A stretch of DNA of 64,000 nucleotides, taken from NCBI RefSeq assembly GCF_020171625.1, contig NZ_JAIUZY010000012.1, forward strand, positions 62,001 to 126,000. Reading direction: 5' to 3'. The notes beneath the pieces were generated by a model, which saw only the letters and a program-made list of their open reading frames with translations, did not search any database and was not told where the DNA came from. The position numbers and the translations under genes were made by a program. This DNA comes from Salipiger bermudensis (GTDB lineage: Bacteria; Pseudomonadota; Alphaproteobacteria; Rhodobacterales; Rhodobacteraceae). Below are positions 25,373 through 29,236 of the stretch, in pieces; the first letter of the stretch is position 1, and each line of letters starts with the position of its first letter.

Positions 25373-26197
25373 CTAGCGCGTCTTGTAGCCGCCGAAGCCC
25401 TGGATCGCGGTGATGTCGATGGTGGCGGGAATATAGCTCCCCGACGCGGCGCTGAGCGCACCCGACAGCAGGGTCACGGCCGCGTTCGAGCTGGTGGCGG
25501 TGCCCGATGTCGCATCGCTGATCGCCACGTAACGCCGCACCAGATCGTCGACGACCTCGGGGTCCGACAGGGTTTCGAGATCGATCCTGTCGTTGATGAT
25601 CGCGGCCTGCCTGTCGATGTCGATGCCCGCCAGCGCCTCGGGCAGGCCAAAGGCCGTGCGGAAGAACTCGGACAGGTCGCTGTTGCGCAGGATGTCATAG
25701 GCGGACTTGATGCCGCCGGCCTTGCGGCGGAACTCGAGCACCGTGCCGATGGCGCCGTTCTCGTCATCCTTGCCGTTGACGTATTGCGTGTCGACATATT
25801 TGTCGACGACCGCGGCTTTCCAGCTGGCATCGATGGTGTTGAGGTTGCCCTGCCCCTCGGGGCCGAAGCCCATGGCCTTGTGGATCTCCTTGAAGCGGGA
25901 ATCCGTCAGCCGGTTGACCAGCGCGCTGCGGTCGGTGAGGTCGCTCTTAAGAACCTTCTCCATCATCGCCTTGCCGAAGATCTGGTCCTCGAGATCGTAG
26001 GCCTTCATCACGAAGCTGTAGAGGCGGTAATCGCCGGTCAGATCCTCGACATTCTCGACGTCGCCGATGTTGTCGAGGAAATACGCGATCTCGCGGGCGT
26101 GCTGCGGCTCCTTCCGGATCAGCTCCTGATCCTTGTCCTCGGTGGCGTTGATCAGCTGCAGCGCTACCGTGCTCGACATCCCCGCAATCGAGATCAT
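25373..26197 (-). CDS. DUF1217-domain flagellar-cluster protein
   Basis: A 274-residue protein with repeated helical blocks (EPQHAREIAYFLDNIGDVENVEDLTGDYRLYSFVMKAYDLEDQIFGKAMMEKVLKSD; NSDLSEFFRTAFGLPEALAGIDIDRQAAII) that match DUF1217, a family tied to alphaproteobacterial flagellar clusters with no firm role. It has no signal peptide. It is the last gene of the flaF-flbT-DUF1217 set and overlaps flbT by four bases. A contribution to flagellin or filament handling is plausible but unproven. Confidence 0.75.
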   Translation of the reverse strand: MISIAGMSSTVALQLINATEDKDQELIRKEPQHAREIAYFLDNIGDVENVEDLTGDYRLYSFVMKAYDLEDQIFGKAMMEKVLKSDLTDRSALVNRLTDSRFKEIHKAMGFGPEGQGNLNTIDASWKAAVVDKYVDTQYVNGKDDENGAIGTVLEFRRKAGGIKSAYDILRNSDLSEFFRTAFGLPEALAGIDIDRQAAIINDRIDLETLSDPEVVDDLVRRYVAISDATSGTATSSNAAVTLLSGALSAASGSYIPATIDITAIQGFGGYKTR

Positions 26198-26604
26198 GCG
26201 TCGGCAAGCTCCGACGTGTTCGGCCCGAAGACCTCGTCCTCGCGCTTCATCAGCGGGCGCAGGTCGCGCAGCGCGGTGAAGTACTCGCCCCGGCTGACAT
26301 TGTTGGCCGCCTCGAAGACATGCTGGCGCAGCTCGTCTCCGAACACCGGCACCAGCGCGGCGAGGCGGGTCTGGATTTCCTTGAGCAGCCGCTCGCGGCG
26401 GGCCGGCTCGATCAGCGCGTTCTGGATCAGGAAATACACGATCCGGACGGGCGTCGAGGCCGCATCCGGTTTCAGCAGATCCGTTTCGCGAATGATGTCG
26501 GCGCGGTTCTCGACCGTGACGGTCGACTTGCGACCGCCATTGCGCATCATGCAGCCGTTGACGACGAAGCGTTCAAACGGTTTGAGCGTGAGATTGAGTG
26601 CCAT
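26194..26604 (-). CDS. flbT: Flagellin mRNA regulator FlbT
   Basis: A 136-residue cytoplasmic post-transcriptional regulator. It contains the FlbT pattern LTLKPFERFVVNGCMMRNGGRKSTVTVENRADIIRETDLLKP and NVSRGEYFTALRDLRPLM. In Caulobacter FlbT binds the 5' leader of a flagellin mRNA and lowers its stability or translation. Here it lies directly downstream of flaF and of two flagellin genes that share a conserved leader hairpin, which makes a local target likely. It overlaps flaF by 32 bp. Confidence 0.92.
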   Translation of the reverse strand: MALNLTLKPFERFVVNGCMMRNGGRKSTVTVENRADIIRETDLLKPDAASTPVRIVYFLIQNALIEPARRERLLKEIQTRLAALVPVFGDELRQHVFEAANNVSRGEYFTALRDLRPLMKREDEVFGPNTSELADA

Positions 26605-27010
26605 CTTGGTTCACCGCTGCTGGGGTCGGGCGCTGGCCGGCGAGGCCGCCGAGAATGTTCTGGTTCACGTCGATCAGGGCCGGAAGGCCGTCGCCGCCGC
26701 CGATCACCACGCCGCAGGTGCGATCGACCCACAGGGCGATCGACATCAGGTTGGCGCGCAGGTCGGCCGGAAGCTGGTTGTTGTCATCGCTCAGATCGGT
26801 GCGGAGCCTGCTCCACAGGACGCGGTTCTCCGCCACGGCGTCGCGCAGGCCATGCGCCAGAACCGCAGTGCGCGCGAACTTGTCGCGGGCCGCGAGCCAG
26901 TTCGGGCGATGCTGCTCCATTGCGCCGGTGATGCGGGCGAAGACGCGGGCTTCGATCTGCTTCGGCGAGGCGCTCTCGCGGATCGTGCGTTTGTATGCCG
27001 AGATGCTCAT
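26573..27010 (-). CDS. flaF: Flagellin biosynthesis regulator FlaF
   Basis: A 145-residue protein with the FlaF core SISAYKRTIRESASPKQIEARVFARITGAMEQH, then LAHGLRDAVAENRVLWSRLRTDLSDDNNQLPADLRANLMSIALWV. FlaF acts with FlbT: it favours flagellin production and secretion, counteracting FlbT repression. The start at 27010 begins right at the conserved core. It lies downstream of the flagellin genes, with a stem-loop in the 143-bp gap. Confidence 0.92.
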   Translation of the reverse strand: MSISAYKRTIRESASPKQIEARVFARITGAMEQHRPNWLAARDKFARTAVLAHGLRDAVAENRVLWSRLRTDLSDDNNQLPADLRANLMSIALWVDRTCGVVIGGGDGLPALIDVNQNILGGLAGQRPTPAAVNQDGTQSHAQTV

Positions 27011-27093
27011 TCGATTATTGCCTTTTCTCCCCCGGCTCGTCGCGGGGTGTTCCGTCACGCGGGCCCGGTTGATCCGGAGCTCCGTTGGTGAGA

Positions 27094-27153: not shown

Positions 27154-28080
27154 TCAGCGGAACAGCGACAGGATGTTCTGCGGCGCCTGGTTGGCGATCG
27201 ACAGCGACTGGGTCGCCAGCTGCTGCTGCACCTGAAGCGCCTGCAGACGGGCCGCCTCTTCTTCCATGTTGGCATCGATCATCGAGCCGACGCCGGCGTC
27301 GATGTTGTCGACCACCGAGGAGAGGAACTGCTGCTGGTTCTCGAGCGACTTCTCGGACTGGCCGAGCTTGGTGGCGATGTCGGTGACAGCACCGGCAACA
27401 CCTTCGGTCGACGCCAGAACACCGGCAAGGAAGGCCTCGCCGGTGGCGGCCTCTGCGTTGGCCGCAAAGCCCGTCGCGATGGCCGCGAAGTTTGCGACCT
27501 GCTTCTGCATGTCGTGGGTGCCCACGGTGATCGACGTGGTCTTGTAGGTGCCGGCACGGCTGATGCCGGTCACCACGTTGCGGTCCGTCGGAGCGGCGCC
27601 GCCCGAGTCACCAGCGGATGTCAGGACACCCGTCGCGGCAGCGACTGCTGCCGCGGTGCCTGCTGCGGCCCCGGCTGCAAGCATGTCGTCGCCGTTGAAG
27701 GTCGACTGCTCCAGCGTGGTGGTCATCTGCTTGACCAGCTCGTTGAGATCGTTCTCGATCTCGGCCTGGCCGCCGGTGGCGCCCTGCGCGAAGGCCACCT
27801 TGTCGAGGAACTGCTGCCCCAGCTCATTGATGGTCTCGGCACCGAGGCGCGCGGTGGCAACCGAGTTCTTGGTGAGGGTCAGGCCTTCGTTGATCGACGC
27901 GTAGACCGAGCTGTCGCCCTTCATGGTCTCGGAGATCTGGAAATATGCGGCGTTGTCTTTGCCGGACTCGACCTTGAGGCCGGTGGAAATGCGGCCCTGC
28001 GTGCTCTCGAGGTTCGAGTTGATCTGACGCAGGGTCGACAGCGCGCTCATTGCGCTTGCATTGGTATTAATGGAAGACAT
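27154..28080 (-). CDS. Flagellin (copy 1)
   Basis: A 308-residue filament subunit. The conserved D0/D1 N-terminus (INTNASAMSALSTLRQINSNLESTQGRISTGLKV) and C-terminus (LQALQVQQQLATQSLSIANQAPQNILSLFR) frame a short, Ala/Gly/Thr-rich variable domain at about residues 135-170. It is nearly identical to the upstream flagellin copy over both ends and differs in the middle, so the two genes arose by tandem duplication. The 5' leader holds a conserved hairpin and a GGAG ribosome binding site. Confidence 0.96.
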   Translation of the reverse strand: MSSINTNASAMSALSTLRQINSNLESTQGRISTGLKVESGKDNAAYFQISETMKGDSSVYASINEGLTLTKNSVATARLGAETINELGQQFLDKVAFAQGATGGQAEIENDLNELVKQMTTTLEQSTFNGDDMLAAGAAAGTAAAVAAATGVLTSAGDSGGAAPTDRNVVTGISRAGTYKTTSITVGTHDMQKQVANFAAIATGFAANAEAATGEAFLAGVLASTEGVAGAVTDIATKLGQSEKSLENQQQFLSSVVDNIDAGVGSMIDANMEEEAARLQALQVQQQLATQSLSIANQAPQNILSLFR

Positions 28081-28130
28081 TGTAACTGCTCCGTTTTCTA
28101 TCGTTACTGTCCGTCATTCTGACGGAAACC
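28081..28130 (-). promoter_or_regulatory. Structured 5' leader of flagellin copy 1
   Basis: The 50 nt before the ATG align without gaps to the leader of flagellin copy 2. A hairpin (CCGTC stem at 28121-28125 with GACGG at 28111-28115 on the transcript, loop AGAAU) is followed by a conserved AACGATAGAAA stretch and CGGAGCAG ribosome binding site. The outer C-G pair here is U-A in copy 2. This is a candidate FlbT-binding leader. Confidence 0.6.
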
Positions 28131-28151
28131 TATTATTTTAAGTGGGGAGAC

Positions 28152-28180
28152 CCGCCAGCCCGGTACGCCCGGACTGGCGG
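28152..28180 (-). other. Stem-loop between the two flagellin genes
   Basis: CCGCCAG (28152-28158) pairs with CTGGCGG (28174-28180), and an inner CCGG pairs with CCGG (28160-28163 with 28169-28172). It starts 17 nt after the stop of flagellin copy 2. It may end or protect that transcript before the separate leader of copy 1. No U tract follows. Confidence 0.5.
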
Positions 28181-28196
28181 ATCGGGTGGTACTGGA

Positions 28197-29186
28197 TCAG
28201 CGGAACAGCGAAAGGATGTTCTGCGGTGCCTGGTTGGCGATCGACAGCGACTGGGTTGCCAGCTGCTGCTGCACCTGAAGCGCCTGGAGACGGGCGGCTT
28301 CTTCTTCCATGTTGGCATCGATCATCGAGCCCACGCCGGCGTCGATGTTGTCGACCACCGAGGAGAGAAACTCCTGCTGGTTCTCGATCGACTTCTCCGA
28401 CTGGCCGAGCTTGGTTGCGATGTCGGTCACCTGGCCGACAAGGTCTTCCGAGGTCGCAAGCGCGGTGGCAAGGAAGTTGTCCGTTGCGTCGGCGGCAGCT
28501 GCGGTCTCTCCGAAACCGTCGACAGCCGTGCCGCCGTTGGTGGTGCCGGCGACTTCGACGATGGCCTTGAACGACGCGACGAGCGACGCCATGTCGTGCG
28601 TGCCCACGGTGATCGAGGTGGTCTTGTAGGTGCCGGCACGGCTGATGCCGGTCACGACTTCCCGATCAGCGCCCACGGTTGCTGCGCCGTTTACTGCGGC
28701 AGTCGCCATGGCGCCGTCGACACCGGCCACCGCGTTGGTCGAGCCACCGGTGCCCGCCACGATGTCGGTGTAGGAGCCCGCACCCAGCATGTCGTCACCG
28801 TTGAAGGTCGACTGGCTCAGCGTGGTTTCCATCTGCTTGACCAGCTCGGCGAGATCGCTCTCGATCTCGGCATGGCCGCCGGTCGCGCCCTGCGCGAAGG
28901 CCACCTTGTCGAGGAACTGCTGTGCCAGGCCGTTGATGGTCTCGGCGCCGAGGCGTGCGGTGGATACCGAGTTCTTGGTGAGGGTCAGGCCTTCGTTGAT
29001 CGATGCGTAGACCGAGCTGTCGCCCTTCATGGTCTCGGAGATCTGGAAGTAGGCTGCGTTGTCCTTGCCCGACTCGACCTTGAGGCCGGTGGAGATGCGG
29101 CCCTGCGTGCTCTCGAGGTTCGAGTTGATCTGTCGCAGGGTCGACAGCGCGTTCATCGCGCTGGCATTGGTATTGATAGAGGACAT
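28197..29186 (-). CDS. Flagellin (copy 2)
   Basis: A 329-residue flagellin, 21 residues longer than copy 1. The N-terminal ~130 and C-terminal ~90 residues match copy 1 almost exactly. The central region (about 135-235; SYTDIVAGTGGSTNAVAG, then a Thr/Ala-rich segment) differs and is longer, giving a different surface-exposed domain. It has its own leader hairpin and ribosome binding site. It lies upstream of copy 1 in the direction of transcription. Confidence 0.96.
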   Translation of the reverse strand: MSSINTNASAMNALSTLRQINSNLESTQGRISTGLKVESGKDNAAYFQISETMKGDSSVYASINEGLTLTKNSVSTARLGAETINGLAQQFLDKVAFAQGATGGHAEIESDLAELVKQMETTLSQSTFNGDDMLGAGSYTDIVAGTGGSTNAVAGVDGAMATAAVNGAATVGADREVVTGISRAGTYKTTSITVGTHDMASLVASFKAIVEVAGTTNGGTAVDGFGETAAAADATDNFLATALATSEDLVGQVTDIATKLGQSEKSIENQQEFLSSVVDNIDAGVGSMIDANMEEEAARLQALQVQQQLATQSLSIANQAPQNILSLFR

Positions 29187-29236
29187 TTATTCTGCTCCGA
29201 TTTCTATCGTTGTCCTTCGTCTTTCTGACGAAAACG
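29187..29236 (-). promoter_or_regulatory. Structured 5' leader of flagellin copy 2
   Basis: This is the same 50-nt architecture as the leader of copy 1. The stem UUCGUC/GACGAA (29227-29232 with 29216-29221) closes an AGAAA loop, followed by AACGATAGAAA and CGGAGCAG. The pair that is C-G in copy 1 is U-A here, a compensatory change supporting a real RNA structure. Confidence 0.6.

Follow-up and report, generated by a model that had tools for sequence, protein, structure and literature searches.

The analyzed window, a 64,000-nucleotide stretch of the Salipiger bermudensis contig NZ_JAIUZY010000012.1, carries a run of flagellar genes on the minus strand. The run begins with FlgI, named from the gene order in annotated relatives, and continues with a rod-binding protein and a FlgN-like protein, whose Pfam match (E 3e-4) lies under the curated cut-off. 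Two flagellin open reading frames follow: the upstream flagellin of 329 amino acids (28197..29186), with Pfam Flagellin_N and Flagellin_C matches, and the downstream flagellin of 308 amino acids (27154..28080), which shows 82% identity to its upstream neighbor. Just downstream of them, where the initial annotation had placed flaF and flbT, matches to PF07309 (E 6e-23) and PF07378 (E 1e-31) identify FlaF (26573..27058) and FlbT (26194..26604), the latter a protein of 136 amino acids and our proposed binder of the hairpin described below. A DUF1217 protein, encoded after FlbT, is the last in the run. The listed FlaF frame begins with GTG, and an internal ATG is probably the true gene start. Between both flagellins, the minus strand contains an inverted repeat, CCGCCAG...CTGGCGG (window 28151-28180), which is terminator-like and without a clear T run. 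A separate promoter may serve the second flagellin.

Hairpins in the flagellin leaders

The 50 nt before each flagellin ATG (28081-28130 and 29187-29236, minus strand) can be aligned gap-free, with 37 of 50 positions identical; in the 80 nt farther upstream of the aligned parts, just 15 of 80 positions match. Both leaders fold into a hairpin, referred to here as H1, and equally good folds arise in only 1 of 200 shuffles of each leader (z -3.0 and -2.9). H1 of the upstream flagellin, UUUUCGUC-AGAAA-GACGAAGG, occupies positions 29214..29234, and H1 of the downstream flagellin, UCCGUC-AGAAU-GACGGA, occupies 28110..28126, both on the minus strand; the two are defined by sequence, by fold and by the covariation in homologous leaders presented in the next section. 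The loop of both copies consists of AGAA and one further base (U or A). Pairs 1-4, counted from the loop, are identical between the copies, and pair 5 is C-G in one of them and U-A in the other. The gap-free alignment, the AGAA(U/A) hairpin in each leader and the compensatory change beside unaltered loop-proximal pairs had been proposed in the initial annotation, and all of them were borne out by the sequences and by the comparison of folds with shuffles. In the minimum-energy fold of the downstream copy, the outer A and U of the loop pair too, which leaves a GAA triloop, and a 70-nt piece of the downstream-flagellin leader folds less strikingly (z -1.7, with 12 of 200 shuffles equal).

The CGATAGAAA stretch downstream of H1 and the GGAG ribosome binding site, recognized by sequence at 29195..29198 for the upstream flagellin and at 28089..28092 for the downstream one (minus strand), are kept in both leaders, as had also been claimed. 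In the upstream-flagellin leader, the CGATAGAAA stretch can fold as a possible second hairpin, H2, with the sequence CGAU-AGAA-AUCG (29198..29209, minus strand), ending on the ribosome binding site. Its counterpart in the downstream-flagellin leader is CGAUAGAAAACG (28092..28103, minus strand), around which a helix GUAAC/GUUAC is predicted, with the ribosome binding site in its loop.

The 4.74-Mb genome contains CGTCAGAAWGACG at exactly three places: the two window leaders and contig C5, where it precedes, by about 80 nt, a flagellin of 38% identity that has a second FlbT next to it. Both S. bermudensis (L004) and a genome of the same genus (G367) also have this tandem flagellin pair and both of its leader types, so the flagellin duplication is not very recent. 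Recent duplication, which had been offered as the explanation for the likeness of the leaders, is not needed to account for it.

A third kind of flagellin in this genome, located on contig C3 (G000 C3:257368-258663; L031, L032; a 479-aa frame), has a leader without an AGAA hairpin, and may be outside FlbT control; the leader scan that took in this flagellin left out L021 and L024. By eye, its leader carries CGCGC-GAACU-GCGCG instead. Two FlbT genes lie close together in six other genomes (G116, G134, G149, G199, G215 and G269), perhaps with divided roles.

No part of the window attains the gathering threshold of any Rfam family, the flg-Rhizobiales RNA (RF01736) included; this RNA resembles the element described here in being a motif named for flagellar genes, in that case of Rhizobiales, according to a table entry in PMC2864571. 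A search of ten relatives at a loose threshold gave three chance-level Rfam matches, none of them within a leader.

Covariation of the leader hairpin

For comparison, 203 flagellin leaders were gathered, and AGAA was picked in them by position alone, not by pairing. Where leaders agreed in all of their last 60 or 80 nt, only one of them was counted, and flagellins with an HMM score below 60, a missing N-terminus or a leader of less than 80 nt were left out. In the short type of leader, AGAA lies at -50 to -34 from the start codon in 41 of 44 distinct leaders, and stems of at least 4 bp flank it in 35 of these 41. When the arms were swapped between leaders, the mean was 9.6 and the maximum 17 in 1000 swaps. 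Among the 34 distinct short-type hairpins, all seven pairs show two-sided changes, which amount to 58 cells as against 24 in shuffled data and at most 33 with the partner slid.

Because kinship among sequences can mislead shuffles, a tree-based null was added, in which columns were simulated independently along the tree of flagellin coding sequences in 2000 runs. Out of 287 cells, 214 were paired and 67 doubly changed, the null maxima being 206 and 50, and none of the 2000 null alignments reached the observed covariation. The initial annotation had made its hairpin depend on covariation in homologous leaders, and the short-type leaders do covary strongly. A constant AGAA loop with a stem that changes in step marks the leader hairpin as a real control element.

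These data also bear on a simpler explanation, in which the likeness of the two window leaders reflects recent duplication and chance, without any function. The high identity of the two flagellin genes speaks for it. This explanation is refuted by the covariation, because, across 41 leaders, paired substitutions alter the stems around a constant loop; the third copy, standing before a distant flagellin, counts against it as well, and we regard it as extremely improbable.

In the long type of leader, AGAA lies within range in 54 of 66 cases, with stems of at least 4 bp in 29 of the 54, compared to at most 26 after swapping. Covariation is modest here because GUCAGAANGAC is conserved as sequence. 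The alternative motif AAAA occurs in 45 of the 66 long-type leaders and has a stem in 29, with a swapped maximum of 16. A set of three hairpins is frequent in the long-type leaders of Rhodobacteraceae (L029 and many more): GUC-AGAAN-GAC (near -80), GC-AAA(A)-GC (near -30) and one that is GC-rich.

A second AGAA, at -32 to -8, is found in 31 of 44 short-type leaders, where 8 of the 31 have a stem of at least 4 bp (swapped mean 2.9, maximum 7). In other families, a second AGAA by the ribosome binding site has a stem in 9 of 47 leaders (swapped mean 2.8, maximum 8). Pairing of the H2 type is above that of swapped arms yet weak, and much weaker than that of H1.

Loop types in genomes with FlbT or CsrA

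In a sample of 289 alphaproteobacterial genomes, FlbT was found in 106, a Flagellin_N match in 182 and a CsrA match in 62, of which 61 are over the family cut-off. The 182 genomes with Flagellin_N matches, which may take in FlgL-like proteins, divide into 99 with FlbT only, 53 with CsrA only, 5 with both and 25 with neither. These figures represent a split and not many independent events, because the groups are largely separate families. The genome under study (G000) has no CsrA (PF02599) match.

The known sites of CsrA/RsmA are leader hairpins with GGA in the loop, present, for example, in the flagellin mRNAs of CsrA-FliW bacteria. They share with the present case the location in flagellin leaders, a fixed short purine loop motif and a small RNA-binding protein, which here is a proposed one. 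In contrast to those sites, the loop here is ARAA and not AGGA, and FlbT is found in CsrA's stead. H1 as a site of CsrA itself was ruled out, as both window copies have AGAA, a loop without GGA, in a genome without a CsrA match.

Loops were tallied without motifs chosen beforehand, under a strict hairpin rule of at least four Watson-Crick pairs and a loop of 4-5 nt. The greatest excess was that of AGAA and AAAA in FlbT-bearing genomes, and of AGGA, followed by AAGU, AAGA and AGGU, in CsrA-bearing genomes devoid of FlbT. Hairpins with AGAA, AAAA and AGGA loops number 58, 33 and 0, respectively, among 112 leaders of Rhodobacteraceae and named Rhodobacterales, and 16, 15 and 1 among 65 leaders from other families with FlbT and no CsrA match. 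The corresponding numbers are 1, 1 and 15 among 54 leaders from 34 genomes with CsrA and no FlbT, a set from which 10 of 50 attempted loci were left out with an unclear start codon; the weak CsrA match of G226 was excluded from the counts. Nine leaders of genomes with neither protein gave 0, 1 and 0, and the two leaders from one genome with both proteins had no hairpin with any tested loop.

Within -110 to -20, AGGA occurs in 14 of 67 leaders from FlbT-bearing genomes of families other than Rhodobacteraceae, none of which places it in a stem-loop of 4 bp or more, and in 19 of 54 leaders from genomes with CsrA and no FlbT, 16 of these 19 having a stem. Under the strict rule, 32 of 67 leaders from FlbT-bearing genomes of these other families have an ARAA hairpin and about half are without one.

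A check on named species used 12 of 57 matching plasmid records with flbT nearby, chosen for variety. In 9 of the 12 flagellin leaders, AGAA is the loop of a hairpin that has four or more Watson-Crick pairs; these leaders are those of Cereibacter sphaeroides, Roseomonas marmotae, Azospirillum brasilense, A. lipoferum, Marinovum algicola, Salipiger CCB-MM3, Loktanella (two) and Alloyangia. The Methylorubrum leader has an ACAA loop, and the leaders of Paracoccus and Paroceanicella, inspected by eye, combine AGAA with a stem of three Watson-Crick pairs plus one G-U pair. This check is not fully independent, because the Marinovum and Loktanella leaders resemble earlier ones. Sulfitobacter L369 stands outside the 12, as the annotated flagellin is absent at the tested place.

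The leader hairpin thus exists, is conserved, covaries and accompanies FlbT in the samples. As a candidate FlbT element, the role first suggested for it, H1 gains support both from covariation and from the co-occurrence of ARAA loops with FlbT across the class sample, a link that is correlative. Its assignment to this lineage holds for Rhodobacterales and fails as a limit, since the element is also present in other FlbT-bearing families, including those of Azospirillum and Roseomonas.

One genome of the same family, G340, offers a natural deletion (L378, G340:C2:679500-684500). Flagellin, FlaF and DUF1217 are present in order, and FlbT is missing between FlaF and DUF1217. The leader of this genome has no ARAA-loop hairpin under the strict rule, while other stems remain by eye. 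This is one clean FlbT loss that fits the link between FlbT and the hairpin. Evidence against the link comes from a later set, kept apart from the main loop counts, of 13 leaders in five FlbT-less genomes of other families: a strict ARAA hairpin is present in three of them (G024 1 of 1, G284 1 of 4, G045 1 of 2). It is absent from G035 (0 of 4) and from G230 (0 of 2), although one G230 leader has such a hairpin with a six-nt loop. A short hairpin in G338 does not satisfy the strict rule. Two genomes are uninformative on FlbT loss, G312 with its flagellin at a contig end and G362 with FlbT pieces at contig ends, and no leader was recognized in G316 and G008. The three exceptional leaders (L266, L282 and L269 in G024, G284 and G045, respectively) have an AGAA or AAAA hairpin and belong to families with FlbT-bearing members. 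Possible causes are a recent loss of FlbT, gaps in the assemblies or a different reader of the hairpin.

The last of these causes can be generalized: the hairpin may be a real conserved RNA element whose reader is an RNase, an RNA chaperone or the ribosome instead of FlbT, for instance a 5' stabilizer of an abundant mRNA. Such a role would suit the ARAA hairpins of the three FlbT-less genomes and the correlative nature of the link to FlbT, and stem-loops near the 5' end are known to stabilize mRNA. However, a stabilizer would need no fixed AGAA/AAAA loop, AGGA is the commonest loop where CsrA replaces FlbT, and the leader of G340, a genome that has lost FlbT, is without the ARAA loop, although by eye it retains other stems. 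We find such a reader rather improbable.

FlbT and its possible relationship to CsrA

The action of FlbT on flagellin mRNA has been described since 2000, with opposite effects in Caulobacter and Brucella, as passages of PMC4347634 relate; there, FlbT of Brucella is proposed as an activator, the recognition site of FlbT is left blank and the mechanism is called 'unresolved'. Excerpts of PMC3930126 and PMC4347634 have Caulobacter FlbT binding the flagellin 5' leader, in agreement with the initial annotation, and the former has it repressing flagellin through that leader. According to excerpts of PMC7591256 and PMC9812332, it acts jointly with the flagellin FljJ, up to the point at which FlaF helps to export FljJ. 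In a rhodobacteral species, Phaeobacter inhibens, an flbT transposon mutant was still motile (an excerpt of PMC12363192), which is in keeping with FlbT as a repressor. The words 'analogous system' are used in a passage of PMC4894983.

The fljK leader of Caulobacter is the closest known parallel on the side of FlbT: it combines FlbT beside flagellin genes, hairpins in the 5' leader and expected post-transcriptional control. It differs from the leaders described here in that no FlbT loop motif is named for it in the excerpts of the literature found, and in that FljJ is described as the partner of FlbT for Caulobacter. More generally, the excerpts retrieved on FlbT and flagellin leaders contain no statement of an ARAA loop or of homology between FlbT and CsrA.

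The N-terminus of FlbT, with the pattern LxLKPGExxxxNGxV...LRExDI, recalls CsrA. When a profile of 144 FlbT sequences was compared with a profile of 30 CsrA sequences, hhalign gave a probability of 74% for the whole protein and 86% for the first 50 residues, over FlbT residues 3-41, and 0.4% for a reversed CsrA control. The FlbT-CsrA score was 29.3, and the maximum in 400 column shuffles was 19.0. By subset, FlbT from outside Rhodobacteraceae gave 82% and Rhodobacteraceae alone a weaker 55%. Among 90 open-frame families from the same loci compared with CsrA, only FlbT clusters, three in number, exceeded 20 bits; the highest score outside them was 19.5. Arg39 of FlbT, kept in 135 of 144 sequences, aligns to Arg44 of CsrA, which we take to be a key residue for RNA binding. 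In the FlbT of G123 and G200 (L068 and L191), LGE or IGE replaces the usual NGA (GERFILGESVITN), variants that bring these two proteins closer to CsrA (GETLMIGDEVTV).

The structural model of FlbT (pLDDT 84) shows five short strands followed by four helices, and a model of the N-terminal part alone shows four strands. The order of elements in the whole model would correspond to that of CsrA with a helical part added. Foldseek, with single chains, returned no CsrA among the best 50 of 359 matches for the whole FlbT model (best E 0.3) or among the best 50 of 90 matches for its N-terminal part (best E 0.4). A Pfam search of four FlbT proteins up to E 10 yielded no CsrA match, under HMMER filters that drop most weak matches, and a PDB sequence search with FlbT gave a single match (E 0.9). 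Homology between FlbT and CsrA is graded likely, on profile evidence, because the profile match stands while Foldseek, among the matches listed, and Pfam give no CsrA.

FlbT could also bind the hairpin and be unrelated to CsrA, with convergence or chance behind both the profile match and the similarity of the binding sites. The lack of CsrA among the listed Foldseek matches and in Pfam agrees with this possibility, as do the length of FlbT, about twice that of CsrA, and its four helices after the strands. On the other hand, the profile match runs along the CsrA core, including the Arg39/Arg44 position, and exceeds 400 shuffles and 87 other families; the FlbT and CsrA genes seldom co-occur, and the architecture of their sites is similar, with one loop base changed. 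We therefore consider an unrelated FlbT unlikely.

Our preferred reading, which we hold to be fairly probable, is that the hairpin is a structured leader element and the main FlbT site, and that FlbT is a distant CsrA relative that grips an A-(A/G)-A-A loop in place of A-GG-A. The N-terminal part of FlbT would keep a CsrA-like core and grip the H1 loop with it. CsrA is an intertwined dimer, and the FlbT unit that binds H1 would perhaps be a dimer too. In some leaders, FlbT may also hold the second A-rich hairpin beside the ribosome binding site, in the way CsrA holds paired GGA hairpins. By analogy with the published Caulobacter work, bound FlbT would, for as long as the hook-basal body is unfinished, either prevent translation or make the mRNA prone to decay, and flagellin translation would stay low until export starts. 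That FlbT binds this hairpin is itself suggested by their correlation across genomes.

The initial interpretation stands in a wider form, as a conserved hairpin of FlbT-bearing Alphaproteobacteria, and its resemblance to CsrA sites suggests that the two proteins have a common origin. A more far-reaching proposal, which in our view might equally well prove right or wrong, is that FlbT is the alphaproteobacterial descendant of CsrA, the family having split into readers of AGGA and of ARAA, the leader loops having switched along with it, so that flagellin control within the class is of either a CsrA type or a FlbT type.

With the hairpin defined and its loop fixed, the proposed FlbT site can be probed through changes of single bases. 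Should FlbT be related to CsrA, the flagellin checkpoints formed by CsrA-FliW and by FlbT with FlaF and the flagellin co-repressor would be variants of one theme, and a matched switch of protein and RNA specificity, from AGGA to ARAA, would be open to study.
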